DNA of 25,150 nt. Origin: a virus. Numbering within the stretch: the stretch's first letter is position 1; every line of letters begins with the position of its first letter. This document shows, piece by piece, positions 99-20,428 of this stretch. The position numbers were made by a program, and so were the translations under genes. Location of the stretch: positions 1-25,150 of IMG/VR virus record IMGVR_UViG_3300033146_001954; one strand, given 5' to 3'. The notes under the pieces are model-generated. The model was not told where the DNA came from. It ran no database searches and was given only the letters and a program-made list of their open reading frames with translations.

Positions 99-126
99 AG
101 TTCGGTCAAAATTTGACCAACCACTG
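99..126 (+). promoter_or_regulatory. 28-bp palindromic element, copy 1
   Basis: The sequence reads AGTTCGGTCAA, then AAT, then TTGACC, then AACC, then ACTG. Its core is the inverted repeat GGTCAA-3 nt-TTGACC (104-118). It matches copies at 6537-6564 and, inverted, at 16191-16218; 22 of 28 positions are identical in all three. Here it lies about 590 bp upstream of the first gene, after a short GCGGC-GA-GCCGC hairpin (86-97) and a second CAGTTCGGT at 77-85. A repressor or stoperator-like site is the favoured but unproven reading. Confidence 0.7.
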
Positions 127-202
127 CAACAAACCCACCGGCGCCATTTCAAGTTGCCATGTCCCGGTCTGCAAATTTATTTGCCCAGCGGTAAAATTTC
201 CC

Positions 203-231
203 TTGCAAACCTTACCCGAATATGGTATAAA
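203..231 (+). promoter_or_regulatory. Possible sigma70-type promoter
   Basis: TTGCAA at 203-208 is followed after exactly 17 bp by TATAAA at 226-231, a fair match to the -35/-10 consensus with ideal spacing. Transcription would start near 238 and produce a leader of roughly 470 nt before the first gene at 707. A second -10-like TATAAT lies at 22-27, but its -35 would fall outside the window. This is a consensus match only. A phage polymerase or an upstream promoter could equally drive the operon. Confidence 0.3.
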
Positions 232-299
232 GGGAAAATAGGCTAGGGAAGATTTATCCTATCCCCCTACAAAATCCCACAAAGTTTAACTGCGATTTA

Positions 300-706
300 G
301 ACTATCTGGACGCCGTTGCCAGCAGACCGGCCGCCACTGCAGGTTATCTACACCTGTCTCCAGAACGCTGGGCGGATTTCCTAGGTTACTCCGCGCCGCA
401 GGCCTGACCAGCCTGGTAACCTCCTTTGCCGCCCGCCGTTCCCAGTCTTAATACCGGACCCAGGCCCGACCGGTATGCCACTGCGACCACGCTGGTAGCG
501 GCCTCCAGATGTTCTAACGCGCTGGTGGGATGAGACGGGAGTTGATTAACGCCGGTTCGGTGGGTTGTGTTCTGTAGTTTGTTCGTTACCGGTGCTCTCT
601 CCCGTTTGCCGATGTGCACTGGTGTGGTTGGTTTGTTGAGTGTGGTGGGTTTGTTTCGGAGGCGGCGGCATGTTCGCCGCCGACTGTAAACTGATTGGAG
701 GATATA
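300..706 (+). other. G+C-rich gene-free leader with inverted repeats
   Basis: About 400 bases without a convincing gene, visibly richer in G+C than the phage genes that follow. Inverted repeats include AGGTTAC (383-389) with GTAACCT (416-422), enclosing CAGGC (399-403) with GCCTG (411-415). Others are ATACCGG (451-457) with CCGGTAT (470-476), and CGGCGGC (663-669) with GCCGCCG (676-682). The last hairpin sits 24 nt before the first start codon and has no T-run, so it is not a typical terminator. The region could be a structured untranslated leader, a non-coding RNA or a remnant of other DNA. No tRNA fold was recognised. Confidence 0.5.
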
Positions 707-958
707 ATGTCTAGGAATTTACCGAGAGCTGGTGGTGATGCTGTTCAGTGTATGCCGATTGAGAATCATGGGAGTACATCAGGTGCTGCAAATATTGATG
801 TTACTAACATGGCATTCATCGAGTTCGATAGTGCTGTGACGGTGTACTGGGAAGGTGAAACCTCAAAAACTTTCGATGTAGCTAAAAATAAAATATATGG
901 AGTTGAAGGAATCAACACTCTCCATGTCAGTGCTGCAGTAAACTATATTTGGCTGTAG
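707..958 (+). CDS. Small phage structural protein, hypothetical
   Basis: An 83-residue protein with no domain I can name. The start is ATG 707, because GGAGG at 697-701 sits 5 nt before it; a TTG 12 bases upstream would lie inside that ribosome binding site. The C-terminal half alternates hydrophobic and polar residues (AFIEFDSAVTVYWEG and HVSAAVNYIWL), as in a small all-beta domain. It is the first gene of the operon and sits directly before two large fibre-type proteins, so a minor virion or tail component is the most likely role. That role is inferred from context and fold style only. Confidence 0.7.
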   Translation: MSRNLPRAGGDAVQCMPIENHGSTSGAANIDVTNMAFIEFDSAVTVYWEGETSKTFDVAKNKIYGVEGINTLHVSAAVNYIWL

Positions 959-967
959 GAGGCAACT

Positions 968-2626
968 ATGCCGATAGGTTCAGATTTTAGTGTAAGTAGT
1001 GGTGGAGACATTCGTCACACTGGTGGAACAGATAAGTATACTGTTCTGGAGTTACACAGGTGGTTGCAAGACCTTGCTGATGATGCAGCAGCTTCTGGTA
1101 ATGACCTGATTGATATCACAAGTGATACTCCGTCAGAGCGTAGTACTGACAATATTATCACACTGAACTCTCCGTATAATATTGACGATATTGCAGCTGA
1201 GTATTTGTACGACGGTAGTATTACTCAGTCCGGAGGTGATGTTGTGTATTCTGGACTGGTTGTTGTGGGGTCAGTATATGGGACTACAACCCTGCAAGTT
1301 GTCCAGAATAACACTTTGTACGATGGCGATTCTCCATTTTGGGGAACTGGTATTAATACTGATGCTGCGAATAACATTCTTACCAGAATGCTCATTAAAA
1401 CCAGGACTGGTGGAAATGACATTGATGGTAAGCGGGTAAGGATTTATGCCCGGGAATGGGGAGCAACGTTTGCTGAGTTCTCTGTTACGATGGGACTTGG
1501 TAATTCCACGGCAGCTATCTTTACCAATGAAGACTTGAATAACAAGACGGCATCTGCTACAGTTGGTGGATGGTCAGGAATCAGTAACACTGAAGGCTAC
1601 CAGACGCTTGACCTACAAAATGGTAATGGAAGTAAGCCGTACTATTCCAAGTGGGATAAGAGCACGTATACAATTAATCAGTTGTATGAACGTGCTAAGT
1701 ATCTTACCCGCAGAGGAACTGCTGAAACAGTGTATGGAATGGACGGAGAACTATTCCGAGGTATAACGCATGAGTGGGACTATGACAATGAGTCTGGTGG
1801 ACCGTTTACTGAGAATGAAACATTAAGTTGGGGTACCGGCGCAACGGCTGGTACTGGAGCGCTTTTGGCGCTTCATGATACTGGTTCTGCGGGAACAATG
1901 TGGATTCAGTTACTTACCGGTGTACCGCCTGCTGATAATACGGCTATTACTGGTGGGTCGTCCAGTGCGACATGCGATGTGAATGGGTCAGTTACTGCCA
2001 GAACTCTTCCGAGTGTCTTTCTTGGACAGTCAACTGGAAGTACAATTATTGGTGGGTTTGGAGTTGGTATTGACCCCAATGACCTTACACACAATGACAA
2101 GGTATTTGACCTTACGAATACTTTGCAGCAACCTCCGAATAACGTTACGTTTACTGTACATGGTCTTGTTTCAGGTGAAGACCGTGTTCTGGTAACAAAC
2201 GATAGTTCTGGGGTTGATACCACACAGATGACTCTTACATCTGCATTGACTGGCTCTGCAGTAACAAGTGTTCCTGTCAACAGTATTCCATCTGATACTC
2301 CAGCAAGTGGTACCATTCGGATTGTCTGTAATAACGGTGTACATAAGCGTGTATCATTCAGTTCATGGAGTGGAAGTACCTTTACGATTACATCAACTAA
2401 TTTCAGCAGCAGTCATGCGGACAGTGGTAACGGTGTATACATTGGGTACATTGATAAACTGGCATCTGGAACATCTGAGCAGTTTACTGTTGTATATAGT
2501 TCTGACAGAACTTTGTTTGTGCGAGTTCGTGACGGGGGCGCAACACCAATTAAAACCTTTGAAACTACTGGCGCACTCAGTTCTGGTGGTGGAAGTACTA
2601 CGGCAATTCGGACTTCTGACGCATAG
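968..2626 (+). CDS. Large tail/fibre-type structural protein
   Basis: A 552-residue protein of Gly/Ser/Thr-rich, beta-strand-prone sequence, typical of phage tail fibres. The start ATG 968 is preceded by AGGAGG (957-962), which overlaps the previous stop codon. The N-terminal segment DIRHTGG...YTVLELHRWLQDLADDAAASG (about residues 14-45) resembles, from memory, the conserved head of a family of large hypothetical phage tail proteins. The remainder lacks catalytic motifs I can identify, although a lyase or depolymerase fold cannot be excluded. It is followed 8 bp later by another large fibre-like gene. Role inferred: virion-exposed tail protein. Confidence 0.7.
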   Translation: MPIGSDFSVSSGGDIRHTGGTDKYTVLELHRWLQDLADDAAASGNDLIDITSDTPSERSTDNIITLNSPYNIDDIAAEYLYDGSITQSGGDVVYSGLVVVGSVYGTTTLQVVQNNTLYDGDSPFWGTGINTDAANNILTRMLIKTRTGGNDIDGKRVRIYAREWGATFAEFSVTMGLGNSTAAIFTNEDLNNKTASATVGGWSGISNTEGYQTLDLQNGNGSKPYYSKWDKSTYTINQLYERAKYLTRRGTAETVYGMDGELFRGITHEWDYDNESGGPFTENETLSWGTGATAGTGALLALHDTGSAGTMWIQLLTGVPPADNTAITGGSSSATCDVNGSVTARTLPSVFLGQSTGSTIIGGFGVGIDPNDLTHNDKVFDLTNTLQQPPNNVTFTVHGLVSGEDRVLVTNDSSGVDTTQMTLTSALTGSAVTSVPVNSIPSDTPASGTIRIVCNNGVHKRVSFSSWSGSTFTITSTNFSSSHADSGNGVYIGYIDKLASGTSEQFTVVYSSDRTLFVRVRDGGATPIKTFETTGALSSGGGSTTAIRTSDA

Positions 2627-2634
2627 GATTACGC

Positions 2635-4893
2635 ATGCCTTGGTCAACTAGCGGTACTTGGACAAATGAAGCATCAAAGACGGTTACTGCAGTTGCTAGT
2701 ACAACTGGTGGCATAACTGTAACTGCAGCTTCGCATGGGTACTCGAATGGTGATTTTGTTCAGTTAATTGATTTAGGTACTTATAACGGTGCGTACTTTA
2801 TTAGTAATGTTACCACTAACACTTTTGACATAGTTAATCAGTATAAACAGGATGGTACATTATTAAGTTATGGTGCTACAGACTCTGGAACCTGCGCAAA
2901 AGGGGCTAAAGATTTCAGTGGCATAACAGGCGTAACTAACGTATCGCAAGTAGTCAATAATTCAAAGGATAAGATTTATCAGTCATCTGGTACAAGTGTT
3001 GAAATAACAATTAAAGGTGCTATCTGTATTGACCCCAAATTTGAAACTGTAATTTTGAATAGAAGTGCTGGTGCTGGGAAAAATGCTCTGACTGTTGACA
3101 CTGGTGGTATACTGCAAATAGGAATACCAGACCTTGAAAATTCCTACTATGATTTTCCTGCTGGAGTAGCTTTTATTTTTCCGGTGTACTCCACAAATAA
3201 CTCTTTTGCGTACCAAGAAACTTGGAGTCCTTTTCGTTGTATTGGTAGTGGTGAGTTAAAGTGGTTTAGCGGAACTGTTTTCTGCTATGGCGCAGTTGCT
3301 TGGTATGGTAAAGTTCTTTGCATGTCTAAGAACTGTATTCTTTCGTCAAGAAATACTGTTGCGCCACAGATACGTCAGCGGTCAAGTAACTGTATAATCA
3401 AGGGATTAACAACACATGACTATAAGTTTACAGCTATTGTAAATGCTTCAGAGATTAAAGGATACGTCCCAATTCAGTCCACATCTGCTATTGATATGTC
3501 GTCAAGTGGTAGTAATAATACCTGGTATACATTCTACAACCTAATTGCTGGGTATGGGAATGATAAAGAGGTAGGCATTAAGAATAAGATGTGGGTAAGA
3601 CTTGTTAATGTTAATAATGGGTCTGATATTACAATACATGCGCAAACTACTGGCTCTACAAACCAAGCTGGAATTTGCGAAATTCGTGAAGAGTTATCAC
3701 TTACGATACAAGAGCAAGATGGAACTAAGATTGAAAACTGTAGAGTGTTTATTCGTGATACAGACCATTCACACAGATTAGCTGCAAATACCTATAATAG
3801 TAATCCTGACTATGAAGATGACAGAACGTATGGCGGTTTAACCGATACTGACGGAGAGATATCATTTACTGGCGATACTGGTAGTATTTTGCTTACGTGC
3901 TACCACAGACCTGATAATGGAGCTACGACAAATGACGTTTGGGATAGTCGTGGTAAGAATAATAATAAAACAGATTTATTTGACGTTGGATTTGCTTGCT
4001 ACGGGTATATTGCAGGTGTGCAGGAGTACGAGCTTAAGGGAAATGATGGTATAGATGTAACGTATGTGCTATTTGCTGATACAGGAATTGTAGAATCTAA
4101 CAAAACAACAGTTAGTGGATATACAAGTATTGATAATCTTAGTAAGCTGTATGACTATGCACAGTACTGGGTACAGAAATCTTCTGATAATATGGAAGAA
4201 ATTGGACTTGGTAGTATGGTAGTTGAGAAGTCTGGTAAAACGATAGACTTTGGAGCAAAACATGTTTATCTTGATTCTTCATATTCAGATGTATTTGATT
4301 ATACTGACTCCAGTAAAAATGTGCAAGTTAAAATTGGGTCTGGATTAGCTGTAACAACTGCATATACTGGAATAAAGGCCACAACGTTTTATCTTAATGA
4401 TGCAATCAATCTTACAGATATTACACTTGATGGTGATTTACATATAAATACTGGAGCGAATTCAACGCTTACATTTAGTAACGTTACTGTTACTGGTAAT
4501 ATATATAACGACGACACCTCGCACACACTAACAATTACTGCATCAAACGGTGCCAGTATAACTGCAGGTGATGCTGGAACTGGAAACGGGCAGACAAATA
4601 TTCAGCATCCAGTTACTGTTAAAGTTACTGTTAAGGATGCAGCAACTGGGGCCGCTATCTCAGGTGCTATGGTATTTCTGGAGGAATCCGTTAGTGGAAC
4701 TGATATAATAAAAACGACTACAAATGCTAGCGGAGTTGCCCAGAATACTACATACGACTACACAACTGATAAAGCAGTTACTGGACGTGTACGTAAAGCA
4801 TCTAGTGGGTCATTATATAAGACTGGAGATATTACTGGTACAATAACCAGCAATGGATTTGACACTACAATACTTCTAATAAAGGATGAGTAA
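2635..4893 (+). CDS. Tail fibre/adhesin with carboxypeptidase-regulatory-like C-terminus
   Basis: A 752-residue beta-rich protein. The N-terminus (about 15-75, with ITVTAASHGYSNGD and VTTNTFDIVN) resembles beta-sandwich modules of tail fibres. Near residue 660 begins HPVTVKVTVKDAATGAAISG, followed by GAMVFLEES and TNASGVAQ. This is the usual signature of a carboxypeptidase regulatory-like/Ig-like domain, known as a surface-binding module. A similar beta element (LTIQEQDGTKIENCRVFI, then GGLTDTDGEISF) occurs near residues 365-420. The ribosome binding site is weak (AGGA at 2625-2628 overlapping the previous stop), so translation may be coupled to the gene before. The stop overlaps the next start (TAATG). 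Likely a host-recognition fibre. Confidence 0.7.
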   Translation: MPWSTSGTWTNEASKTVTAVASTTGGITVTAASHGYSNGDFVQLIDLGTYNGAYFISNVTTNTFDIVNQYKQDGTLLSYGATDSGTCAKGAKDFSGITGVTNVSQVVNNSKDKIYQSSGTSVEITIKGAICIDPKFETVILNRSAGAGKNALTVDTGGILQIGIPDLENSYYDFPAGVAFIFPVYSTNNSFAYQETWSPFRCIGSGELKWFSGTVFCYGAVAWYGKVLCMSKNCILSSRNTVAPQIRQRSSNCIIKGLTTHDYKFTAIVNASEIKGYVPIQSTSAIDMSSSGSNNTWYTFYNLIAGYGNDKEVGIKNKMWVRLVNVNNGSDITIHAQTTGSTNQAGICEIREELSLTIQEQDGTKIENCRVFIRDTDHSHRLAANTYNSNPDYEDDRTYGGLTDTDGEISFTGDTGSILLTCYHRPDNGATTNDVWDSRGKNNNKTDLFDVGFACYGYIAGVQEYELKGNDGIDVTYVLFADTGIVESNKTTVSGYTSIDNLSKLYDYAQYWVQKSSDNMEEIGLGSMVVEKSGKTIDFGAKHVYLDSSYSDVFDYTDSSKNVQVKIGSGLAVTTAYTGIKATTFYLNDAINLTDITLDGDLHINTGANSTLTFSNVTVTGNIYNDDTSHTLTITASNGASITAGDAGTGNGQTNIQHPVTVKVTVKDAATGAAISGAMVFLEESVSGTDIIKTTTNASGVAQNTTYDYTTDKAVTGRVRKASSGSLYKTGDITGTITSNGFDTTILLIKDE

Positions 4894-5126
4894 TGTGGCA
4901 AAAGCGGTATGATTCGGCGCAGCAGACTATCAAAGAGCAAGCTGAAATTATTGATTCTTTGACTAATCTTGTTAATGTACTTAAAGCTGAGAAGGTACAG
5001 TGGGAAGCTGAGCGGAGTAAGCAGTTGCAAATTATTACTCAGCAACTATCTGGCAGTGATGATATTGTACGTAAACTGCAGGATGAAATTCGAGAACTCA
5101 GGTTAAAGTATAACATTAAGGATTAG
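4893..5126 (+). CDS. Small coiled-coil protein
   Basis: A 77-residue protein that is helical almost throughout and rich in Glu, Gln, Lys and Leu (for example IKEQAEIIDSLTNLVNVLKAE, then KLQDEIRELRLKYNIKD). It has heptad-like spacing and no signal peptide or membrane segment. Its ATG overlaps the TAA of the fibre gene by one base (TAATG), implying translational coupling. A trimerising or chaperone helper for the preceding fibre is a reasonable guess. A cytoplasmic partner for lysis is less likely because no hydrophobic anchor is present. Confidence 0.7.
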   Translation: MWQKRYDSAQQTIKEQAEIIDSLTNLVNVLKAEKVQWEAERSKQLQIITQQLSGSDDIVRKLQDEIRELRLKYNIKD

Positions 5127-5128
5127 TA

Positions 5129-5545
5129 ATGGCAATTACTATTGACTGGGGAACAAAGGTTATTAATGTTCCTAAAGCTGACCTTACAGTTGTACAAACT
5201 ACTCCATTTGAGGTACGGAAGCTAGATCTTGACTGGTTTCGTTTACAGCTTAAAGACCTTGAGGATTCAGAAGCTGGTATTCCAATGCCTGATACTCACC
5301 GGCATTATGCCAGTGTTGACGTTGGTGGTGTAACACTTGCTCAGGTTATTGAGCTAATAAATGGGTATACCGTAACGTTTGAAGATGGTCAGTATGCAGT
5401 AAATTTAGTGGGCGCAAACTCAAACGTTGGTGATGTAGTTAATGTAAACCAAGTATCTATTAGGTCACAGAACTCTGCTGGACTGACAGAACCAATAACT
5501 AGCACAGAGTTGGCAGATAAACTCTGGAGGTATACTCGTCCATAA
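5129..5545 (+). CDS. Conserved phage tail-region protein, function unknown
   Basis: A 138-residue protein starting at ATG 5129, two bases after the previous stop. The C-terminal part, with VIELINGYTVTFEDGQYAV and NLVGANSN...VVNVNQVSIRSQNSAG (about residues 71-118), is a strongly conserved block that I recall from many uncharacterised phage tail-fibre or baseplate-region proteins. The pattern suggests a small beta-sandwich. It lies between a coiled-coil gene and the BppU-like gene, so a baseplate or fibre-attachment role is inferred. No enzymatic motif is seen. Its stop overlaps the next start. Confidence 0.7.
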   Translation: MAITIDWGTKVINVPKADLTVVQTTPFEVRKLDLDWFRLQLKDLEDSEAGIPMPDTHRHYASVDVGGVTLAQVIELINGYTVTFEDGQYAVNLVGANSNVGDVVNVNQVSIRSQNSAGLTEPITSTELADKLWRYTRP

Positions 5546-5787: not shown

Positions 5788-6127
5788 GTTGATTGGTGAT
5801 ATTGAGTGGTATCGTGGTGATAGCTACCCACTAACACTTACCATAAAAAGTAAGTCAACAAAACAGGCGATTGATATTACTGGATATGCGTTCAAGTTGA
5901 CAGTGTCATCAACTAAGGACCCGCCAGATGATAGTACAAAGCTGTTTGATGTAGACGGTGACCTTGACGAGCCAACAGAAGGTAAGGTTGTATTTACACC
6001 TACAGCTACAAATACTGACTTTGTCCCAGGAACATACTACTACGACATTCAGATGACTGATATAAATAGTAATATTCGGACGATTGCTAAGTATAAATGG
6101 AAACAACTACAGGATATTAGCAAATGA
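5780..6127 (+). CDS. BppU-like baseplate/fibre N-terminal domain protein
   Basis: A 115-residue protein. The start is placed at ATG 5780 rather than the GTG one codon earlier, because TAGAGG at 5768-5773 spaces well to it. The sequence WYRGDSYPLTLTIK...IDITGYAFKLTVSS...GKVVFTPT...GTYYYDIQMTD is characteristic of the small Ig-like domain at the N-terminus of BppU-type baseplate upper proteins, which serves as a fibre-anchoring module in tailed phages. Here the domain stands alone as a whole protein. It overlaps the acidic protein upstream and, by ATGA, the endolysin downstream. Confidence 0.75.
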   Translation: MSELIGDIEWYRGDSYPLTLTIKSKSTKQAIDITGYAFKLTVSSTKDPPDDSTKLFDVDGDLDEPTEGKVVFTPTATNTDFVPGTYYYDIQMTDINSNIRTIAKYKWKQLQDISK

Positions 6128-6537
6128 ATAGACTATTACCATACAGTGACCTGGAACTGCTTACATGTCTTGTTGTTGGTGAGGCAGCTAATCAACCGTG
6201 GGCAGGTAAGGTAGGTGTTGCGTATACTGCATACGTTCGCACACAGCATCCTGGGCATTGGCATTGGGGGCATAACTGGCGGGAAGTTATTCTGTGTAAA
6301 AATCAGTTCTCCTGCTTTTTTGACCACAATCTTAATCGGATAATTGAGCAGCGTGAGCAGCATAGTGCTATTTGGCAAGAGTGTTATATGGTTGCATATT
6401 CAGTTTATCTTGAGCTGGTTAGTAGCTATATTGGAGAGCCTACGCATTATCATACACTTAGTGTACAGCCCTATTGGGCAAATGACCTTAGGTATCTTAT
6501 GACTATTGGTGACCATAAGTTCTATACATGTTTTTAA
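6124..6537 (+). CDS. SleB-type cell wall hydrolase (endolysin)
   Basis: A 137-residue protein matching the Hydrolase_2/SleB family, lytic transglycosylase-type enzymes that cut peptidoglycan glycan strands. The motif LLTCLVVGEAANQP carries the family's catalytic Glu at residue 20. It is followed by the family features QFSCF (near residue 60) and THYHTLSVQPYWA (near 105-117). Length and arrangement suit a stand-alone catalytic domain. There is no signal peptide, so release would need a holin or another export route; no holin-like membrane protein is visible nearby. The start overlaps the previous gene by ATGA. The gene ends directly at the second 28-bp palindromic element, which begins at the last base of the stop codon. 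Confidence 0.85.
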   Translation: MNRLLPYSDLELLTCLVVGEAANQPWAGKVGVAYTAYVRTQHPGHWHWGHNWREVILCKNQFSCFFDHNLNRIIEQREQHSAIWQECYMVAYSVYLELVSSYIGEPTHYHTLSVQPYWANDLRYLMTIGDHKFYTCF

Positions 6538-6564
6538 GTTCGGTCAATTTTTGACCTATCACTG
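6537..6564 (+). promoter_or_regulatory. 28-bp palindromic element, copy 2
   Basis: The sequence reads AGTTCGGTCAA, TTT, TTGACC, TATC, ACTG, in the same orientation as the copy at 99-126. Palindrome core: 6542-6556. It begins on the last base of the endolysin stop codon and ends 16 bp before the next start codon, filling most of the only sizeable gap between 4893 and 14183. The 6-bp A/T-containing stem with no following T-run makes an intrinsic terminator unlikely. Confidence 0.75.
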
Positions 6565-6579
6565 GAAAGGAGATTTACT

Positions 6580-6927
6580 ATGAAATGGATTATTAAGATT
6601 CTGTGTCTGATTGTATTGCTGGCTCCGGTTGCTGTATTTGCTGAGTGTGATTTTGCCTGGAATAATGTTGCAGGGCATACGTACACACTTGATACATACA
6701 CGGTACAGTTTTCTCCATCATACTCAGGCCCGTGTCCGCAGGGAAAAGTTGATGTATACAATGAAACCTGTAAGTTGCCGATACTTACCTGTACCTATAT
6801 GACACACTGTGGACAGCGTATTACAGTTACCTGTGGCGATACTGACCTTAATTTTGTATACTGCAGTGGTAAGCTTGTGTACGTCGAATTTACTGATATT
6901 ATGCTAGAATTGGAGTCTGACGAGTGA
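6580..6927 (+). CDS. Secreted Cys-rich small protein
   Basis: A 115-residue protein with a clear Sec signal peptide: Lys2 and Lys6, a hydrophobic run IILCLIVLLAPVAV-type over residues 4-19, and likely signal peptidase I cleavage after VFA (residue 21). The residue before Cys23 is Glu, so a lipobox is not satisfied. The mature part has seven cysteines (23, 52, 64, 71, 77, 85, 95), implying disulfides in the periplasm or outside. Ribosome binding site GGAAAGGAG lies at 6564-6572. It has its own leader carrying the palindromic element and sits between endolysin and the DUF1353 gene. Possible roles include lysis accessory, superinfection exclusion or host-envelope modification; none is demonstrated. 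Confidence 0.75.
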   Translation: MKWIIKILCLIVLLAPVAVFAECDFAWNNVAGHTYTLDTYTVQFSPSYSGPCPQGKVDVYNETCKLPILTCTYMTHCGQRITVTCGDTDLNFVYCSGKLVYVEFTDIMLELESDE

Positions 6928-7361: not shown

Positions 7362-7363
7362 TT

Positions 7364-7885
7364 GTGGATTTTGACGATACTTGGGAATTGGAGGATGACG
7401 AGGAGTTCAGTCCTGTAACTACAGAAAAGCAGCAGCACGGACGGCCTAAGATTATAATTGATACAGAAGCTGTGTACGACGCTGTTGCTCAGGGAATGAA
7501 TAAGAAGGAAATGGCAGAAACCTTCGGAGTTTCTATCCCCACACTAAATAGCAGGATTGCTGAGATTCAGAAGAAGCAGGGGCTGTTGATGCAGTATCGT
7601 GCACTTCAGTCTTTACAGTTAACTGATATTCAGGCAAGGGTACTCGAGTGCATAACAGACGAGAAGATTCAGGAAGCACCTCTACGGGACTTGGTATTTG
7701 CGTACAAGATATTGAAGGACAAAGAACTGGTAGTCGATGGAAAGCCAAACGAAATAAAAGGGCTGGTTGGGTATCTCATCCAGTTGGAAAAAGAAGAGGC
7801 TGCCGCCGCCGACCCAGTTGAATTGGATATAACACCTGAAGACCATCAATATACAGAAGATGGTGAGAAGTTGCCTGACTTATGA
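7364..7885 (+). CDS. HTH protein, likely small terminase subunit
   Basis: A 173-residue protein with a GTG start at 7364, preceded by a G-run (7353-7357) and two bases after the previous stop. A helix-turn-helix is seen around residues 45-70 (GMNKKEMAETFGVSIPTLNS), preceded by a GRPK basic patch at 26-29, with an acidic N-terminus. The C-terminal half is helical (LRDLVFAYKILKDKELVVDG), a pattern often seen in TerS-like proteins. It lies three genes before TerL. I infer it recognises the packaging site. A transcription factor is the alternative. Confidence 0.65.
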   Translation: MDFDDTWELEDDEEFSPVTTEKQQHGRPKIIIDTEAVYDAVAQGMNKKEMAETFGVSIPTLNSRIAEIQKKQGLLMQYRALQSLQLTDIQARVLECITDEKIQEAPLRDLVFAYKILKDKELVVDGKPNEIKGLVGYLIQLEKEEAAAADPVELDITPEDHQYTEDGEKLPDL

Positions 7886-9867
7886 AATTAACAGATATTG
7901 ATAGTGTACTGCGAAAGAATAAGATAAAACCTCGCGGTAAATTAGCTAGCATATCTGAAAGTTTGTATGATGCTGCTAAGGAGCTGTCGTACTATGACCC
8001 AGTACGTAGAAATACTGACCTAGCTACAGGTCCAGTTCCTATGAAAAAGATACCTACTGCAGCTGGTAAAGTTGCTCGGGTAGTTAAGAAGAATTTTATT
8101 GCGCCAGTTATGGATGCGTACCAGACAATGAATAAGGTAAATACTGGGCAACCGTACAGTATGGGTGAAGCACAGAACTTTGCCGGTGTTGGACTGTTGG
8201 CATCTATGCTTGGTGGGCCGAAAGGTGGATTTGACCCAAGTGAGACAGCAGTGATTAGGCAACCTCCTATTGTGACTAAGGCAATCAGGAAAATACTGAA
8301 AGATGAATACAAGGCACGTGGGCCAGTTGACCAAACTAATCCTATTGATATACTGCTTCGTAGGACGGTATTTAGAGGCGAACTGCATGGAAGGTGGCCG
8401 AAGGTAGTTGAAAATAAAGCTATGGCGCCAAACTTTGGGCACAAATGGCGCACAGCTAGTAACATTGGTGAACCAGTTGGTGTATCATCTACGTTTTCGC
8501 CAGAGGTAGCTGTAAACTCATTTTCTAATAGTGCTGAGATGTCAAGAGCTGTTCCGCTATTTGGGGATAAACCTGAAAATGTAATACTTAATATGCTAGA
8601 CGCAAAGCATAGAGGCATTGTTAAAGGTAGTTATATTACAGCTGTTAATAAGTATCTTGACGAGGCACCTGATGATATTATACTAAAGCTTGCTGGGTCT
8701 AAGAAGCCATGGGAACTATTTAGTCTGGATAAGTTTAATGACCATCTTACTACTGATTTAGAGGAAAAGGGATATAAGGGAATTCTTTATCACCCAGATC
8801 GGTATGGCGAGCAAGAACTTAAAATGTTCAATCCAGCAGACCTTTTACACCTAGATATGCGTAAGCTTGGTGATAAGGCAGTAGATAGATATATAGGAGA
8901 TGTAGTAGAAGCAAAAACTAATCGTGATATAGCATATCAGGACTATTTGAGCACTACTCAGCAAGAGACGTCACTTAGAGATAGTATATACTCTAAAATT
9001 GATACTACAGGCGTTATTCGTAAGCATCCAAAAGTTCAAGATGTTATACGAAAGGAACTTGAGTCGCTACCAAAAGATATTCGTGAGTCTGTTACTGACA
9101 TAGCAGTATTTCCACTAGCAAAACTTGTCTATAATCAGGCAAGTAAACCTGGAAGTACTACATTGAACGACATATACTCAGAGATTATGCGATTGCCATA
9201 CGATACACTACTTGATGCTGCACCGCAACTTGCCGATATTGCAATTAGGCATAATACTGCATTTTCTAATAAGCAAAAAGATATTGCCTTGGAAATGGCT
9301 AGTATGCATCGTGATAACCCAAGTGTAATGTTATCTAAAATCTTAAAGTATACTGATTTTGCTTCGCAGAAACGTAGTAGTATGGGCATGGAGTTACTTC
9401 GAGACGCAGATGAGTTACCGCCGGCAGCTGTTGATGATATTATGCGAGTGGTTACGAATAAACTTGGTGATAATACTGTATATACACCACTCGGTGCTAT
9501 GAATAGCAGTAATGCTGAGACAATTAAAAGCATTTTTAAGTCTGTTGCTACATCGGATAAACTATCCGACGATGCTATACAGTATTTGTCGGAGTTAAAT
9601 TCTGCAATACCTGGATTTGTAGACACTGTATATCCAAAGAATCGAATAGCAACACTTGTTGGTAGAAAGTACGCAAATGCAGTATTTCCACTTAAAGCTG
9701 GAACAACATTTGACGACATAGTTAAAAGCGGTGCGCTAATTAAAAAGTATCCTAACGGTTCATTTGCTATAAATATACCGTACTATCGGTATCTTAGGAA
9801 TGTAATGCCAGAACGTGCTCATGCGGTATGGCGGTTACTTAAAGAGCAAAATCAACAGATTAAGTAG
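7882..9867 (+). CDS. Large virion-associated protein with ADP-ribosyltransferase-like segment
   Basis: A 661-residue protein starting at ATG 7882 in an ATGA junction. Residues about 158-325 show the order expected of an R-S-E ADP-ribosyltransferase, as in the ART found in phage polyvalent proteins. There is TVFRGE with Arg165, then GVSSTFSPEVAVNSFSN with Ser203-Thr204-Phe205, then GYKGILYHPDRYGEQELKMF with Glu310-x-Glu312. ARTs move ADP-ribose from NAD+ to protein targets. The N-terminus is basic, and the last 330 residues look helical and resemble nothing I know. Encoded between the putative TerS and TerL, it may be packaged and injected. The ART call rests on motifs alone; a structural or internal virion protein remains possible. 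Confidence 0.55.
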   Translation: MKLTDIDSVLRKNKIKPRGKLASISESLYDAAKELSYYDPVRRNTDLATGPVPMKKIPTAAGKVARVVKKNFIAPVMDAYQTMNKVNTGQPYSMGEAQNFAGVGLLASMLGGPKGGFDPSETAVIRQPPIVTKAIRKILKDEYKARGPVDQTNPIDILLRRTVFRGELHGRWPKVVENKAMAPNFGHKWRTASNIGEPVGVSSTFSPEVAVNSFSNSAEMSRAVPLFGDKPENVILNMLDAKHRGIVKGSYITAVNKYLDEAPDDIILKLAGSKKPWELFSLDKFNDHLTTDLEEKGYKGILYHPDRYGEQELKMFNPADLLHLDMRKLGDKAVDRYIGDVVEAKTNRDIAYQDYLSTTQQETSLRDSIYSKIDTTGVIRKHPKVQDVIRKELESLPKDIRESVTDIAVFPLAKLVYNQASKPGSTTLNDIYSEIMRLPYDTLLDAAPQLADIAIRHNTAFSNKQKDIALEMASMHRDNPSVMLSKILKYTDFASQKRSSMGMELLRDADELPPAAVDDIMRVVTNKLGDNTVYTPLGAMNSSNAETIKSIFKSVATSDKLSDDAIQYLSELNSAIPGFVDTVYPKNRIATLVGRKYANAVFPLKAGTTFDDIVKSGALIKKYPNGSFAINIPYYRYLRNVMPERAHAVWRLLKEQNQQIK

Positions 9868-9875
9868 GAGTGCAT

Positions 9876-10061
9876 ATGACTTTACTCGAACGTGCCTTGG
9901 CTATGCTTGGCAAAAACAAGAAGAACAAAAAGACTGGTGTTGCTGATGCAAAGAAGGCTATGGCTACCAGGCGTAATCGTGTAGATGATGCTGTTGCGCG
10001 TGCACTTGGTAAGAAGTCTAAAAAGAAGAAAACCAAGCTTGCTACGCCGCCGTCTAAGTAA
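9876..10061 (+). CDS. Tiny Lys-rich basic protein
   Basis: A 61-residue protein. The start is ATG 9876, with TAGGAG at 9865-9870 placed 5 nt upstream; the GTG at 9870 lies inside that site. About 20 of 61 residues are Lys or Arg against roughly 4 acidic ones, in clusters such as GKNKKNKK and GKKSKKKKTK. An amphipathic helix (VDDAVARALG) separates the clusters. The composition suggests binding to DNA, RNA or the negatively charged membrane. It sits between the ART-like gene and TerL and its stop overlaps the TerL start. A packaging cofactor or internal virion protein is a guess. Confidence 0.65.
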   Translation: MTLLERALAMLGKNKKNKKTGVADAKKAMATRRNRVDDAVARALGKKSKKKKTKLATPPSK

Positions 10062-11485
10062 TGAATGACTACATAAAGTCTAAAATTAAAGCCTGGCAAG
10101 CCTCACCACTCTTGTTCGTGCATGAGGGTATCCAGGTTGAACCAAGTTCTCAGCAAGCTGAGGCACTGGTTAAATTTGCTAAGACCAAGCGCATGACTAT
10201 CAGGTCAGGCCATGGTACTGGTAAAGACGCCTGTGCTTCGTGGATAATCATCTGGTTCTTGGTTACTAGACTTTACGCCAAAGTTGTTTGTACTGCGCCA
10301 ACGGCAAGGCAGTTGTCTGACGTACTGTGGTCAGAGTTGTCTAAGTGGATGCGTAAAAGTATTGTTGCTGACGAGTTTGTTATCCAGAAAGATAAGATTT
10401 ATCATAAGCATGCACCAAAAGAGTGGTGGTGTCGTGCAGTATCTGTATCAGCAAGAGCATCTAAAGATGAACAAGCTGAGACACTAGCTGGATTTCACGG
10501 CGACCATATGCTGATTGTAGTTGATGAAGCATCTGGTGTTAATGACCCAGTATATATTCCTCTTGAAGGTGCTATGACTCAGGAGGATAATAAGTGTCTG
10601 CTCATTGGCAATATGACCAAGAACTCTGGATACTTCTACGATTCGCATTTTCATAGTGAATTAAAGAAGAGCTGGACTCGCCTGCACTGGGATTCGCGTG
10701 AGTCCAGTAATGTATCCAAGGAAATGGTACAGTACTTCATTGACAAGTATGGCGAGGATTCCAGTGTATTTGCAGTTCGTGTTGCTGGTAATCCGCCACA
10801 CGCAGATGATGATTGCCTCATCCCACTTTCCTGGAGTATGCAGTGTGTTGATAATGACATAGGTGTTCCAGAGGACGAACCACTGTACTTTGGTGTAGAT
10901 GTTGCTCGGTATGGTAGTGATGACAGCGTTATCCTACCACGCCGCGGTAACTGGATATATGAATGGAAGACTATCCATCACATGAATACTATTTCACTTG
11001 GCGGAGAGATAGTGATGATGGGTACTGACATGGAAGCCGAAGGAATCGCTATTGATGAAATAGGTGTTGGTGCTGGAGTAACTGACTGGTTATATAAGCA
11101 TGGAGCAATTCCAACCTTTGGCATTAATGTAGCATGTTCCTCAAGTGATATAACTAAGTACCATAAACTTCGTGATGAACTGTGGGTACGTGTTAAAGAA
11201 AAATGTATGAAGGGTCTGTATAGATTCCCAAGTGGAAAACTTGGTGACCTACTCTGTAATGAACTTGCATCAGTTGGCTACGACTTTAATACCTACGGTG
11301 GAATTGTAGTTGATAGTAAAAAATTACTGAAAAGTAAAGGCAAGGAATCACCGAATGTTGCAGATGCGCTTTGCTTAAGTGAATACTTTCAGAATGTAGC
11401 AACGCAAGTTTTTCCGAAGAATAAGAATAGGCGAGTTAATCCTGCAGCTCGTCAACCAAACCCATACGCTTGGATGGTGGCATGA
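10061..11485 (+). CDS. terL: Terminase large subunit
   Basis: A 474-residue packaging motor and nuclease that pumps DNA into the prohead through the portal and cuts the concatemer. ATPase motifs are present: adenine-binding PSSQQAEAL (28-36), Walker A RSGHGTGK (48-55) and Walker B LIVVDE (151-156) with catalytic Glu156. A coupling-type IGNMTK follows at 182-187. The C-terminal RNase H-like nuclease has the expected acidic residues: FGVDVARYG (Asp280), IAIDEIGVG (Asp332) and PNVADAL (Asp435). Length is normal for the family. The start ATG 10061 overlaps the previous stop by one base, and the end overlaps the portal start by ATGA. Confidence 0.92.
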   Translation: MNDYIKSKIKAWQASPLLFVHEGIQVEPSSQQAEALVKFAKTKRMTIRSGHGTGKDACASWIIIWFLVTRLYAKVVCTAPTARQLSDVLWSELSKWMRKSIVADEFVIQKDKIYHKHAPKEWWCRAVSVSARASKDEQAETLAGFHGDHMLIVVDEASGVNDPVYIPLEGAMTQEDNKCLLIGNMTKNSGYFYDSHFHSELKKSWTRLHWDSRESSNVSKEMVQYFIDKYGEDSSVFAVRVAGNPPHADDDCLIPLSWSMQCVDNDIGVPEDEPLYFGVDVARYGSDDSVILPRRGNWIYEWKTIHHMNTISLGGEIVMMGTDMEAEGIAIDEIGVGAGVTDWLYKHGAIPTFGINVACSSSDITKYHKLRDELWVRVKEKCMKGLYRFPSGKLGDLLCNELASVGYDFNTYGGIVVDSKKLLKSKGKESPNVADALCLSEYFQNVATQVFPKNKNRRVNPAARQPNPYAWMVA

Positions 11486-13272
11486 AGATAAAAATTGAGA
11501 AAGCACTTGAGTGGCTAGGTGAATGCGAGAACAGCACTCCAGAGACACAGTGGAGAAAAGTGTCTAAGGAAGACTATCGGTTCTATGCTGGCAAACAGGA
11601 TACTGCAGTAGTTGTTGCAACATTACAGGAGCAGCAGCGTCCTAACAGTACATTTAACCAGGTAAAACCGAAGATTGATATGCTGATTGGTATTGCTGCT
11701 CAGTCGCGTAGTGATGGAAAGGTGTTAAATGTTGGTGCTGAAGATGCTCCGATAGCTGAGGTTCTAGATGGAACACTTAGGCATTTTCGTCGTGAGATGC
11801 GGATGAAGCAAAAGGAACAAGCTTGTTTCATGCATACAGTTAAGTCGGGCCGGTCAATGCTGTATTTCTGGATTGATAAAAGTAATCCGTTCAAGCCGGT
11901 GCCTACTGCAAAAAGGATTCCAGGATTTCAGTTCGGTGTTGACCCAGAATCTATTGAACTGGATATGAGTGATGCAAGATACTTTTACGTAGATAAGTGG
12001 GTTGATGAAGATGAGTATAGAGACTTATTCCCGAATTTGGATACTGGGTCAATCTCATCTGTCAGTGACCGCTATGACGATGCACCTGAATTTTTCAATG
12101 AGTCTGCCAATAAGTATCGACTTGTTGAGATGTGGTACAAGACAAAGGAAAAGGTAGTGTGGTTTAAGAATCCACTTAGCGGTAAGGCGGAGTGGCTATT
12201 TCCACGCGAATTTGCTGACTTTCGGTTGACACTAATGAAGGGTGTTAAGTTGGCAAATGGACAGCAGTACAAACTTGCTGACCCGCGACAATTACCTGGA
12301 ATTGGCACAAGAAAGGATGTATACCGCTATATAATTTTCAGCGGTGACCATATTATTGAGGAAGGTCAGTCTCCTTATAAGTATGAAGGATTTCCTGCAA
12401 TACTGTATGGGGCATACAAGGATGACGATACAAATGCTTGGTTTGGCGCAATTACTATGTCAAAAGACCCACAGCGAGCATTGAATACTATTCGGCGTCA
12501 GCTTGTACATCTGTTGCAGACATTGCCGAAGGGAATACTGGCACACGAATCTGGAGCTGTTGTAAACATCGAAGATTATGAAGCTAGGGGAAGTGAACCT
12601 AACTTCCATCTCGAATTAATGCCTGGAAAATTTGAGAAGTATAGATTCGAAACACAGCCTGGAATTTCTCCGCTATACGGTCAGCTGGATATGACATTTG
12701 ACCAGGCTATTAAGGACACATCTGGAATCCAAAATGAGTTAATGGGAATCCAGCAGTCCTCTCGTGAACCTGGGGTTTCAGTACAATTACGGCAGCAGTC
12801 AGGACTTACCGTTCTGTATATGCTGTATGACAACTACCAGGATTCAAGGATTCGTGGGAATAAGTTGTTGTTATCACTTATTCAGCAGTACGTCACCTAT
12901 CAAACTGTTATTAGGATTGAAGGTGAAAAGGGTATGGAACTACTGAAAATTAATAGTCAGCTCAACCCGCAATCCGAAGGATTTAACGATATAAGTACTG
13001 GTGAGTATGACATTGTTGTTGACGAAGTTGATGAGTCACCGACTGGGCGTATGATGATAGCCAGGATGCTTACAGAGTTGAATACAAATAATCCTGGTAT
13101 GATACCACCTGATATTATCCTTGAGTATGCAAATGCTCCGTTTACGGTTAAACAGCGTGTTAAGGCAACTTGGGAAGCCATGATGGCTGCTGAAGAAGCC
13201 AGGAAAAATGCTGAGACTGGTGCAAAGGTCAGTTCGGCGGAAAATAAATCTCAGAAAGGAGAAGGGAAATGA
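11482..13272 (+). CDS. Portal protein, P22-like podoviral type
   Basis: A 596-residue head-vertex protein that forms the ring through which DNA enters and leaves. The start is ATG 11482, in an ATGA overlap with terL; the in-frame TTG four codons earlier lies within the GGATGGTGG ribosome binding region. Supporting features are an early RPNSTFNQVKPKIDMLIGI segment (about 50-70), a central block with SKDPQRALNTIRRQL and QLDMTFDQAIKDTSGIQNEL, and QQSSREPGVSVQLRQQSG near residue 430. These match the style of P22-like portals. The Ala/Glu-rich C-terminus is helical, as in portal barrels. Its place directly after terL and before the scaffold supports the call. Confidence 0.85.
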   Translation: MKIKIEKALEWLGECENSTPETQWRKVSKEDYRFYAGKQDTAVVVATLQEQQRPNSTFNQVKPKIDMLIGIAAQSRSDGKVLNVGAEDAPIAEVLDGTLRHFRREMRMKQKEQACFMHTVKSGRSMLYFWIDKSNPFKPVPTAKRIPGFQFGVDPESIELDMSDARYFYVDKWVDEDEYRDLFPNLDTGSISSVSDRYDDAPEFFNESANKYRLVEMWYKTKEKVVWFKNPLSGKAEWLFPREFADFRLTLMKGVKLANGQQYKLADPRQLPGIGTRKDVYRYIIFSGDHIIEEGQSPYKYEGFPAILYGAYKDDDTNAWFGAITMSKDPQRALNTIRRQLVHLLQTLPKGILAHESGAVVNIEDYEARGSEPNFHLELMPGKFEKYRFETQPGISPLYGQLDMTFDQAIKDTSGIQNELMGIQQSSREPGVSVQLRQQSGLTVLYMLYDNYQDSRIRGNKLLLSLIQQYVTYQTVIRIEGEKGMELLKINSQLNPQSEGFNDISTGEYDIVVDEVDESPTGRMMIARMLTELNTNNPGMIPPDIILEYANAPFTVKQRVKATWEAMMAAEEARKNAETGAKVSSAENKSQKGEGK

Positions 13273-14183
13273 CAGTAGAAGACGTTTTGAAAGACCTGGA
13301 GGAGAACAATGATGGGAGTGGAGATGACAGCGGTAGCAGTTCTGATGATTCAGGTAATGATTCTGGCGATGCTGATAAGGGGAAAGATACCGACAAGGGT
13401 GACGGAACTGATTCTGGTGATGATGGTTCTGATGGCGCTGGTGATGACGGTGATACTGGTAAGAAGTCAGATTCTGACGATGATGACACTGACGACCCGA
13501 TAGAGCAGCTGAAGCAGACCCAGGATGAATTGCGGCAGATGCTTAGAATTTCCCGCCGTGAAAATGCTGCAATGAAAGCCAAGCTTGACCGATTTACTAA
13601 CAAGCAGCAGAAGAATAAGAATTCTGACGAGTTTGACGATGATGATTCTGATGACGACTCAGACAAAGGTGATGGTGGTGAACTGTCACGCATTGAGCAG
13701 TTGCAACAGCAGCTGCAGCAGATTCATGACGTCAAAGGTGCAAGTTTTGAGTTGCTTGCTGAGCAAATGGCTGAGACTCAGAAGTACGCTGACGTGGCTG
13801 AGGTGTGCTCACGGCAGAATATGGATGATATTCTCGAAGCTGCTGCTACGGCACTGCATGAGCAGACTGGCGCCGATTTTAATGAGCTTATTCTCGAGCT
13901 TGAGACAAACATCTGGAATAGGCCGAATCCGTACAAGTACCTGTACAGTCTCGTGAAGGAACATCATCCAAAATACCAGAAGGCTGACGCTACCAAAGAC
14001 ACTGACAAAGATGATGATGTCACCGGTAAGAAGTCGGCGTCTAGTATTCAGGACATGGGCGGTGCAGGAACTAAAGGCGGAGGCGGCTGGACTGCAGAGA
14101 AGATTGACGCAATGCCTGAGGATGAGTTGCACAAAGTTCCGGAAGATGTTTACGACAAATATCTTGCGGGTGAACTGGATTAA
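13269..14183 (+). CDS. Acidic scaffold-like capsid assembly protein
   Basis: A 304-residue protein starting at ATG 13269 in an ATGA overlap, with AGAAAGGAGAAGGG just before. Residues 14-76 are nearly all Asp, Ser, Gly, Thr and Lys, and a second Asp run lies at 119-136. Predicted coiled coils follow at 77-112 (IEQLKQTQDELRQML) and 139-153 (RIEQLQQQLQQIHD). The C-terminus (GGGGWTAEKIDAMPEDELHK) looks like a small helical capsid-contact region. Position between portal and major capsid protein, coiled coil and extreme acidity all fit a scaffolding protein. No protease signature is seen. The family is not named with certainty. Confidence 0.75.
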   Translation: MTVEDVLKDLEENNDGSGDDSGSSSDDSGNDSGDADKGKDTDKGDGTDSGDDGSDGAGDDGDTGKKSDSDDDDTDDPIEQLKQTQDELRQMLRISRRENAAMKAKLDRFTNKQQKNKNSDEFDDDDSDDDSDKGDGGELSRIEQLQQQLQQIHDVKGASFELLAEQMAETQKYADVAEVCSRQNMDDILEAAATALHEQTGADFNELILELETNIWNRPNPYKYLYSLVKEHHPKYQKADATKDTDKDDDVTGKKSASSIQDMGGAGTKGGGGWTAEKIDAMPEDELHKVPEDVYDKYLAGELD

Positions 14184-14198
14184 TTTTTAGGAGGATGT

Positions 14199-15230
14199 AT
14201 GGCTAAAACGAGATTTCTTACAAATGACCCGTTGACTCGGAAACGGTGGGCGAAAGACCTGTTCAGGTATATTCTGCCTAACGTTGAGTTCAACGAGCTT
14301 ACCGGCAAGGGTTCAGATGCAATCGTTGAGATGAAAACTGACCTCGGTAAGGGCGAGGGTGACCAGATTACCTTTGGTATCCGGCTGCCGCTCAAAGGCC
14401 AGGGTATTGTCGGTGACAAGACTGTCGAAGGCAACGAAGAGAAACTGCAGTTTCGTAACTTCAAAATGACTATCGAAGAGCTGAACCACGCCGTCGATAC
14501 TGGCGGTAAAATGGACCAGCAGCGTATTCCGTATGACCTGATGAAGGAAGGTAAGATTGGCCTCCAGGAATGGTGGGTTGACTTGCTTTCTAACTACGTC
14601 ATCAACATGCTGGCTGGTAACAGCAAATTTCGGATTGCTGGTGAAGTGTTTGCCCAGGCTATCGACGAACCGGACACTGACCATCACATTGTCATCAACA
14701 ACAAAGCTGAAACTGCCATTACCTCAGCCGACACGATTGACTTGACCTACCTGGACAAGTTGAAACAGCGTGCTGAGAACCCGACCAACGGCGCCTTCAA
14801 GTTGCGTCCCCTGGTCAAAGGCGGAAAGAAGTACTTCCGTGTTTACCTGCACAACTATGTATTCGATGCTCTTCGGCAGAATACCAACGTTGGTCAGTGG
14901 GGTGACCTGCTCCGTGCTGCCAACAAACTGCAGATGCAGAATGTCGAAATCGAGTACAACGGTATGCTGATTGCCAAGACCGAGCGTCTTCCGCAAGTTC
15001 AGACCAATGTGTACCGCTGTGTACTGCTCGGCAAGCAGGCTGGCGTATGGGCATGGGGCGGTGCTGGTGAGAGCAAATCCAGTACGATGTCTTTTGTTCC
15101 TTACGAAAAAGATGCCAAGCGTTTTGTCATGATTCGAGGCGGCGGCATCTTCGGCTGCACCAAACCTCGGTTCGAAGACAAAGACTACGGTGTTATCACT
15201 GGGGCTACCTGGGGCGAAGCTATTAGCTAG
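14199..15230 (+). CDS. Major capsid protein, N4-gp56/DUF4043 type
   Basis: A 343-residue HK97-fold-type shell subunit. The segment GDQITFGIRLPLKGQGIVGD, continuing VEGNEEKLQFRNFKMTIEEL (about residues 54-95), is the hallmark of the N4-gp56 family major capsid proteins. Later regions (YLDKLKQRAENP, KYFRVYLHNYVFDALRQ, EIEYNGMLIAKTERLPQ) follow the family order. TAGGAGG at 14188-14194 lies 4 nt from ATG 14199. Codons end in G or C far more often than in the fibre genes, as expected for the most highly translated virion gene. It follows the scaffold gene directly. Confidence 0.9.
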   Translation: MAKTRFLTNDPLTRKRWAKDLFRYILPNVEFNELTGKGSDAIVEMKTDLGKGEGDQITFGIRLPLKGQGIVGDKTVEGNEEKLQFRNFKMTIEELNHAVDTGGKMDQQRIPYDLMKEGKIGLQEWWVDLLSNYVINMLAGNSKFRIAGEVFAQAIDEPDTDHHIVINNKAETAITSADTIDLTYLDKLKQRAENPTNGAFKLRPLVKGGKKYFRVYLHNYVFDALRQNTNVGQWGDLLRAANKLQMQNVEIEYNGMLIAKTERLPQVQTNVYRCVLLGKQAGVWAWGGAGESKSSTMSFVPYEKDAKRFVMIRGGGIFGCTKPRFEDKDYGVITGATWGEAIS

Positions 15231-15243
15231 GAAGGAGTAACAA

Positions 15244-15654
15244 ATGATTAGTTTTTTCAGTTATGCTTCTGCCGATAACCTCAGGTTGGCTCGCAGTAAG
15301 GTAATTGCAAGTCCTGACGATGGTACGTATGGGCTTATCCACATTCCCAGGTTTGCGTTTCTGTTAAATGCCTGGTGTCGGATTATGACTGCGTACAGTT
15401 CAAGTTCATCTGGTACAATCAATATCGGACTGTCCGGTAACGGTGTGGCAGACGATAATGATGCCATCTTTACCTCTACCGCACTTGACCCAGAAGCAGT
15501 CGGTTGGTCTAATATGACCGACTCTGGTGGTGCTGCCAAAGGTGGGTACTGGTTCGATGCCGGGTCAGGAGCTGTTACCGCTACGTTCTCTATCGGAGAT
15601 TCTTCGGCGAACTGCACAATCATGGTGTTTGCACTGTACAGCGTGCTGACTTAA
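15244..15654 (+). CDS. Putative capsid decoration protein 1
   Basis: A 136-residue protein with AAGGAG at 15232-15237 before ATG 15244, 13 bp after the capsid gene. It is rich in Ser, Gly and Ala with beta-strand alternation (SGTINIGLSGNGVADDNDA, then AVTATFSIGDSSANCTIMVF) and has no catalytic motif. Gene order and codon use similar to the capsid gene suggest a major virion component, most simply a cement or decoration protein. The next gene encodes another small beta-rich protein of similar style, possibly related by fold. Family not recognised; role inferred from position. Confidence 0.6.
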   Translation: MISFFSYASADNLRLARSKVIASPDDGTYGLIHIPRFAFLLNAWCRIMTAYSSSSSGTINIGLSGNGVADDNDAIFTSTALDPEAVGWSNMTDSGGAAKGGYWFDAGSGAVTATFSIGDSSANCTIMVFALYSVLT

Positions 15655-15686
15655 ACAATAACCCTTTGCCCGAATAGGAGTTTATT

Positions 15687-16196
15687 ATGGGTATGCTTGA
15701 CCTGCGTCGACTTGACGCTCGCACCAACGTACTTGAGAATCCTTTCTGGATTACGTCAGGTATGCTGACCCCTGCCGCTGATGACCAAGAGGCAGTATTC
15801 TTTTCATTCCCGGCTGCATATGGCGACAAGGTCTACCTTGTTCAGTCCGTGTGCTTTGAAACTGTAATCGCGTTTGCTGGTGGTACCCTTGCCCTCAAAA
15901 TTGGTACTGGGACTATTCCGCTGGAGTCGTCAGTTGACGGTGCTACCGTTACGCCGACTGATGATGACTTCTACTTTACCACCGCAGCCATTGCTGGAAT
16001 TGCATCTGTCGGAGTTTCATTTCCCACTGCCGGTGCGTTCGTTACAGCGCGTGGCGGTGGTCTTGACGGCAGTTGTGATATTGTCTGTGCGGATTCTTCA
16101 GTTCCTGTTGTCTATGCTTCCCTTACCAGTTCAGCGACAATTACCGCTGGGGCTGGCCGGTTGCACATGTTGCTGAGTCGTATTCCGGCACAGTAA
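15687..16196 (+). CDS. Putative capsid decoration protein 2
   Basis: A 169-residue beta-rich protein, with AGGAG (15676-15680) 6 nt before ATG 15687; a second in-frame ATG two codons later is less well placed. Strand-like segments include FAGGTLALKIGTGTIPLESS and ASLTSSATITAGAGRLHMLL. It uses G/C-ending codons like the capsid gene. A decoration or head-fibre role is inferred. Its last codons (CAG TAA) form part of the inverted 28-bp palindromic element that follows, so the element and the gene end are physically merged. Confidence 0.6.
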   Translation: MGMLDLRRLDARTNVLENPFWITSGMLTPAADDQEAVFFSFPAAYGDKVYLVQSVCFETVIAFAGGTLALKIGTGTIPLESSVDGATVTPTDDDFYFTTAAIAGIASVGVSFPTAGAFVTARGGGLDGSCDIVCADSSVPVVYASLTSSATITAGAGRLHMLLSRIPAQ

Positions 16197-16218
16197 TAGG
16201 TCAATTTTTGACCGAACT
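16191..16218 (-). promoter_or_regulatory. 28-bp palindromic element, copy 3 (inverted)
   Basis: Read on the minus strand it is AGTTCGGTCAA, AAA, TTGACC, TATT, ACTG. The palindrome core is 16199-16213. The ACTG end overlaps the final CAG TAA of the preceding gene. It marks the boundary between the head genes and the adaptor/tail genes and lies 25 bp upstream of the adaptor start codon. Its orientation is opposite to copies 1 and 2. There is no T-run on either side. Confidence 0.75.
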
Positions 16219-19942: not shown

Positions 19943-19966
19943 CCTAAACATCAGAGGAGGAGTACA

Positions 19967-20419: not shown

Positions 20420-20428
20420 GATAACCTA

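Follow-up and report, generated by a model that had tools for sequence, protein, structure and literature searches.

The window analysed here is a linear fragment of 25,150 nt that makes up an entire IMG/VR record and carries late phage genes, namely tail-fibre-like, endolysin, terminase, portal, scaffold and capsid genes. The 28-bp palindromic pattern AGTTCGGTCAANNNTTGACCNNNNACTG matched exactly three times in this window (Table 1). A preliminary description of this DNA had reported three copies with 22 of 28 positions identical and with the central triplets AAT, TTT and AAA, and we recovered all three at the same positions and with the same features. By chance 0 matches were expected (100 shuffles), and no further copies were found in the window when up to 3 mismatches were allowed.

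Table 1. Palindrome copies and selected genes in the 25,150-nt window.
Feature	Position	Strand	Remarks
Palindrome copy 1, AGTTCGGTCAAAATTTGACCAACCACTG	99..126	+	Exact pattern match; left of late operon
Palindrome copy 2, AGTTCGGTCAATTTTTGACCTATCACTG	6537..6564	+	Exact pattern match; 42-nt gap between endolysin stop and secreted-protein start
Palindrome copy 3, AGTTCGGTCAAAAATTGACCTATTACTG	16191..16218	-	Exact pattern match; gap between 169-aa and 212-aa genes
Endolysin gene, upstream of copy 2	6124..6537	+	phrog_938, E 1.9e-13
Terminase large subunit	10061..11485	+	phrog_2 and phrog_5902; anchor for finding relatives, 59-85% identity
Major capsid protein	14199..15230	+	phrog_334, E 6e-65; anchor for finding relatives, 59-87% identity

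Copy 1 precedes the first convincing gene (position 695 or 968), is overlapped by short spurious ORFs only, and has a counterpart at 45729 in the related contig G002, likewise left of the late operon. Two copies had been described as touching stop codons, which was correct for copies 2 and 3. Copy 2 begins on the final base of the endolysin stop codon, with the next start at 6580, the gap and the ribosome binding site (RBS) being read directly from the sequence; its counterpart in G002 (39716) lies in the same neighbourhood, upstream of a DUF1353-like gene. Copy 3 covers the last 6 nt of the ORF at 15687-16196 and lies in a gap located 3' of the major capsid gene, the following gene starting at 16244. 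The same gap also holds an element in G002 (32202) and G010 (38076), in the same relative (antisense) orientation. The last palindrome in the window lies 9 kb from its right edge, which is about the distance to the next site in G002. The three copies in the window understate the feature, since near-complete relatives have 7-16.

The exact 28-bp pattern had no match in the other viral contigs scanned, and relatives were therefore sought via their proteins. Terminase (TerL) and capsid searches (59-87% identity) yielded the long contigs compared first, G002 (47.5 kb), G004 (48 kb), G006 (49 kb) and G010 (45.6 kb), and primase and capsid profile searches added twenty further contigs. G010 and G006 are probably complete, as one gene either spans the two contig ends or recurs at both. 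Every contig of this clade that was long enough to tell carried a phage-specific recurring palindrome in 3-16 copies, often 9-14, whose sequence differed completely from phage to phage. Among the forms are GGTCAn5TGACC, GGTCAYnnnRTGACC (G002, 10 copies), AGTCAAnnnTTGACY (G004), RGTCAAnnnTTRACY (G006) and TGTCAAnnnTTGACA (G010). RGTCAN5TGACY occurred 14 times each in G019 and G025 and 8 times in G026, with 0 matches to the reversed control in each. De novo searches identified the other palindromes of the clade: ACAAATACACAnTGTGTATTTGT (G013, 13 copies), AGATAGTTCAn5TGAACTATCT (G021, 10 copies), CGTAAnnnTTACG (16 copies in G028 and 9 in G022), AGTTTGAn11TCAAACT (G014, 8 copies), GAGTSCNCGTCCAATnATTGnACGGGCACTC (G003, 4 copies) and AGAATGTTC...GAACATACT (G030). 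The dyad reaches about 12 bp per side in G025, G021 and G005, and flanks are sometimes asymmetric, one side being longer by 2-3 bp. A host repeat is unlikely, since the sequence changes from one related phage to the next while the kind of location stays the same, and the phage origin assumed earlier is upheld.

Between phages both arms of the palindrome change together, these compensating changes keeping the dyad. In G006 the arm mismatches track the asymmetry of the element itself and, when read in the transcribed strand, are often A-C rather than G-U. Both observations argue for double-stranded DNA that would be read by a dimer, and agree with the earlier preference for a dimeric DNA-binding protein over an RNA hairpin.

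Palindrome cores were largely non-coding, with 128 of 199 outside genes as defined by a crude ORF caller versus 11 expected. In co-directional gaps the median distance of the palindrome centre was 17 nt from the preceding stop codon and 32 nt to the following start. The promoter-bearing divergent gaps showed no enrichment (13 of 129 intergenic sites versus 32 of 354 gaps). In each of the 19 genomes tested, the sites were spaced more evenly than gaps drawn at random from the same genome, the observed coefficient of variation being lower than the simulated mean (Stouffer z -7.9). The copies occupy any short intergenic gap at even spacing, and module boundaries, which had been proposed as their special places, did not stand out. 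Some positions are kept while the sequence differs: a site separates the 169-aa and 212-aa genes in G000, G002 and G010, always antisense, and the gap before TerL holds one in G001 and G002, with the G010 site one small gene upstream. The longer flank points with transcription at 9 of 10 sites in G002 and 10 of 14 in G019, and the sites of G017 and G006 are oriented almost at random. This mixture in the relatives fits the earlier view of dispersed sites with no fixed orientation.

All genomes that cover the early region also encode one ParB-methyltransferase fusion protein of about 435 aa, so that sites and fusion co-occur; the G014 and G031 contigs end before this region. The fusion gene is absent from the window itself, which ends before the early region, and its presence in the window's phage is predicted from the closest relatives, as is an HTH resembling that of G002 and G020 (GKSKA.VV.DIQIADY). 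ParB CTPase motifs are followed by a ParB-type helix-turn-helix (HTH) and an N6/N4 methylase domain, with matches to ParB_N, N6_N4_Mtase and TIGR00180, some of the ParB_N and TIGR00180 matches falling below the curated cut-off. The ParB CTPase fold and its nucleotide-binding motifs are supported by an invariant GGRR, an E90/E92/N94 motif, the domain matches and structure matches. In profile searches against the PDB the fusion matched Spo0J/ParB/Noc at 1e-12 to 1e-9 and also CcrM/M.HpyAVI. Structure models of moderate confidence (mean pLDDT 75-83) resembled methylases best and Noc next at full length, and about 170 residues of the N-terminal model could be matched to Noc, ParB and KorB (Z 10-12). 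Matches to the DNA complexes Spo0J-parS, Noc-NBS and KorB-OB were also obtained (Z 4-5.6). An HTH after the CTPase domain is indicated by sequence (residues 126-160), by model helices (H133-140 and H144-159) and by the structure matches. ParB-like fusions have been tested for nucleotide binding, with CTP, ATP or GTP as ligands and no binding by many of them (PMC12704722).

The preliminary description had named mycobacteriophage stoperators as a precedent and suggested looking for a repressor whose own promoter carries the site. A ParA ATPase (PF13614) was found in 0 of 13 genomes, with the control positive in 14 of 14, and an integrase (PF00589) likewise in 0 of 13 with a positive control. A shared HTH_3 repressor was not found either, HTH_3 scoring above the cut-off in G028 only. 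The DNA-binding dimer of the earlier reading is supported, whereas a temperate repressor is not. Autoregulation of the fusion gene, our candidate for the binder, was considered and rejected: except in two genomes, sites usually lie 1.2-4.8 kb from its start.

Within the fusion, the HTH segment (residues 126-160) correlated with palindrome distance at a Mantel r of 0.67 (p 0.0002), and at a partial r of 0.68 with the methylase domain controlled for, compared to 0.00 for the CTPase and 0.17 for the methylase. The HTH segment also ranked first when some 830 windows of early proteins were compared. In a scan of windows across the whole proteome, capsid and portal windows reached r of about 0.7, at least equal to the HTH; lineage thus accounts for part of the covariation, and the binder is not nameable from covariation alone. 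The signal was weaker once three outlier phages were left out. The most telling pair was G022 and G028, which combine CGTAA-type palindromes with a TEGN recognition helix seen nowhere else in the set, and which are also close in lineage. One prediction failed: the HTH of G030 is like that of G013, so that a TACACA-type palindrome was expected, and a different palindrome was present. That the HTH of the fusion reads these palindromes is indirectly supported but not proven by these comparisons.

We propose, with a probability of roughly two in three, that an orphan ParB, encoded by the phage and fused to a DNA methyltransferase, uses the palindromes as parS/OB-type sites for binding and loading. 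The protein would dock on the palindrome as a dimer through its N-terminal CTPase and HTH, NTP binding would close the clamp as in ParB and KorB, and the closed clamp might then leave the site and slide along the DNA, by analogy with ParB, Noc and KorB, from which the loading and sliding steps are borrowed (PMC12704722, PMC11790492). With a site every 3-7 kb, clamps could reach the entire 40-59 kb genome, where the tethered N6A/N4C methylase would mark, or the clamps would coat, phage DNA but not host DNA, plausibly as an anti-restriction or self tag, with silencing as another possible benefit. Closure and sliding of the clamp, cis methylation and what it serves are inferred, whereas the sites, their even intergenic spacing and phage-specific sequences, and the domains of the fusion are computed observations. 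More tentatively, and at somewhat less than even odds, the ParB clamp may serve as a methyltransferase delivery device, in which rapidly diversifying parS-like sites at even spacing would load sliding methylase clamps that self-mark the whole phage genome. In this joint and equally tentative reading, marking specificity would come from site-loaded sliding, which would replace a long recognition sequence.

Comparative evidence suggests that the system is a variant of the ParB/parS kind. It shares with ParABS/parS and Noc/NBS the CTPase fold, GxRR and ENxQR motifs, an HTH and palindromic sites, but differs in that no ParA was found, in that a methylase stands in place of the C-terminal dimerisation domain, and in that the sites are genome-wide and not clustered. 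KorB/OB of plasmid RK2 resembles it in a ParB-fold clamp, a parS-type HTH, short palindromic operators and a role outside segregation (PMC11790492), and the N-terminal model of the fusion matches KorB. However, KorB lacks a methylase and works at promoters together with KorA, whereas the sites described here are promoter-unlinked and evenly spaced. Phage fusions of a ParB CTPase with an N6_N4 methyltransferase are known, are enriched in phages and are unexplained in function (PMC12704722). They consist of the same fused domains as the clade protein, but we found no DNA sites reported for them in the literature searched, while the clade proteins keep the HTH and accompany dispersed palindromes.

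Dispersed palindromes have likewise been described before. Cluster O mycobacteriophages such as Corndog carry about 34 dispersed copies of the 17-bp repeat TGTTCGGNNNCCGAACA, which has 7-bp arms, a 3-bp AT-rich centre and no clear orientation; many copies lie in short intergenic gaps and about a third inside genes (PMC4351075). These phages are not obviously temperate, lack an integrase and encode a ParB-like gp90; the authors judged a role of the repeat in transcription initiation unlikely, assigned it no function and did not link gp90 to it (PMC4351075). The element in the window is similar in being a dispersed, phage-specific palindrome with a 3-bp centre that is not seen in other phages. 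The Corndog repeat, however, is one sequence across five close relatives, whereas here the palindrome diversifies per phage and is tied to the ParB-methylase. Stoperators of Cluster A mycobacteriophages are also many dispersed repressor-type sites, but they are asymmetric, oriented with transcription and found in temperate phages (PMC4351075). In the literature searched we found no work that connects a ParB-methylase fusion with cognate sites that are evenly spaced and diversify rapidly. The fusions are known but unexplained phage proteins, and no binder had been assigned to the dispersed palindromes of non-temperate phages such as Corndog. Once the two are connected, each becomes open to testing, with every phage offering a matched protein/site pair and several quite different sequence specificities available. 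If true, the proposal would account for the way in which a ParB-methylase fusion locates and coats the genome that encodes it, and would add genome-wide self-marking to segregation and silencing as roles of ParB clamps.

Among the alternatives, the palindromes might be long-range silencer sites of the KorB or stoperator type, where ParB or another regulator blocks or attenuates transcription of long operons and methylation is a separate matter. We consider this rather unlikely, even though most sites lie 25-45 nt ahead of a start codon within co-directional operons, KorB silences with the same clamp (PMC11790492), and the longer flank follows transcription in G002 and G019. The near-random orientation in G017 and G006, the conserved antisense site before the 212-aa gene, the lack of enrichment in divergent gaps, and the failure to find an integrase or shared repressor all speak against it. 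It is a little less probable still that a different protein, either a small phage DNA-binding protein or a host factor, binds the sites for compaction, replication or packaging. Even spacing would suit any genome-wide scaffold, several small conserved early proteins without known function exist, and the conclusion of the Corndog authors was similarly open (PMC4351075). These small candidates are, however, all less universal than the ParB-methylase, and the different site sequences of related phages argue against a single host factor. Further points in favour of the ParB fusion over such a protein are the HTH correlation and the Desulfofustis phage described below.

It is very improbable that the sites are promoters for an RNA polymerase of the phage, such as hairpins like those of N4 with a 6-bp stem and a 3-nt loop. 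N4 early promoters do resemble the palindromes in stem and loop lengths, and an RBS directly follows some copies. Copies nevertheless occur in either orientation and in the early as well as the late regions, the dyad in G013, G005 and G021 is far longer than such a stem, and none of the large proteins tested was recognised as a polymerase (a search for the T7-type family had no match, with no positive control matching either). RNA hairpins acting as terminators or mRNA processing sites are the most improbable of all, for despite the intergenic position and the A-runs and T-runs around the stem in G004 and G006, most copies lack a U-tract, arm mismatches show no G-U bias in the transcribed strand, and sites lie inside single operons.

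Outside the clade, no repeated palindrome was found in Javan49, where the fusion lacks the HTH, or in Vibrio phage MF497422, where the HTH of the fusion is degenerate. Microcystis phage PP438425 has a possible fusion HTH, yet no clear repeated palindrome, and MW202489 gave a weak palindrome candidate only. In the Desulfofustis phage OP947158, whose ParB-methylase is 30% identical and retains the HTH, nine copies of GCTATGTCCCAAnTTGGGACATAGC are spread over 44 kb (evenness p 0.03), and this palindrome is unrelated in sequence to those of the clade.

Adjoining the tail genes of the clade phages is a conserved late protein of 1350-1650 aa, represented by a 1652-aa version in contig G010. No Pfam match was obtained for this protein in G010 or in the related contig G002, and it may be located inside the virion. 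Within the window, the genes for the small terminase and TerL flank a 661-aa ORF, with a very lysine-rich 63-aa ORF placed between this gene and TerL.

Clade phages also encoded a family A DNA polymerase to which an N-terminal uracil-DNA-glycosylase domain is fused. Several paralogues per genome belonged to a small early protein family with the motif EAESLRTGLYRR, a possible additional DNA-binding candidate. The ParB-methylase of contig G030 has a reading frame broken across two frames, reflecting either a frameshift or a sequencing error. MW202489, another phage with a ParB-methylase, contained a weak candidate repeat, GGTTTACn6GTAAACC, whose copies were intergenic for the most part. Genes at one end of contig G006 recur at the other, differing as between strains, and two variants of one palindrome are among the repeated features; G006 probably represents a circular genome whose assembly combined two strains.

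Coordinates of the features described (L-numbers, sequence stretches with their own numbering)
Feature	Source	Position
Late protein	G010, L029	5905-10863
Late protein	G002 (L019/L020)	18393-22451
661-aa ORF	window	7882-9867
63-aa ORF	window	9870-10061
Polymerase fusion	L019	13076-15457
Polymerase fusion	L028	15646-18054
Small early protein	L028	4734-5141, 6755-7168
Small early protein	L019	787-1089
ParB-methylase	G030, L186	8206-9327
Candidate repeat	MW202489, L194	10276, 18888, 24004, 38799
Repeated end	G006, L025	1-600
Repeated end	G006, L027	8085-9061
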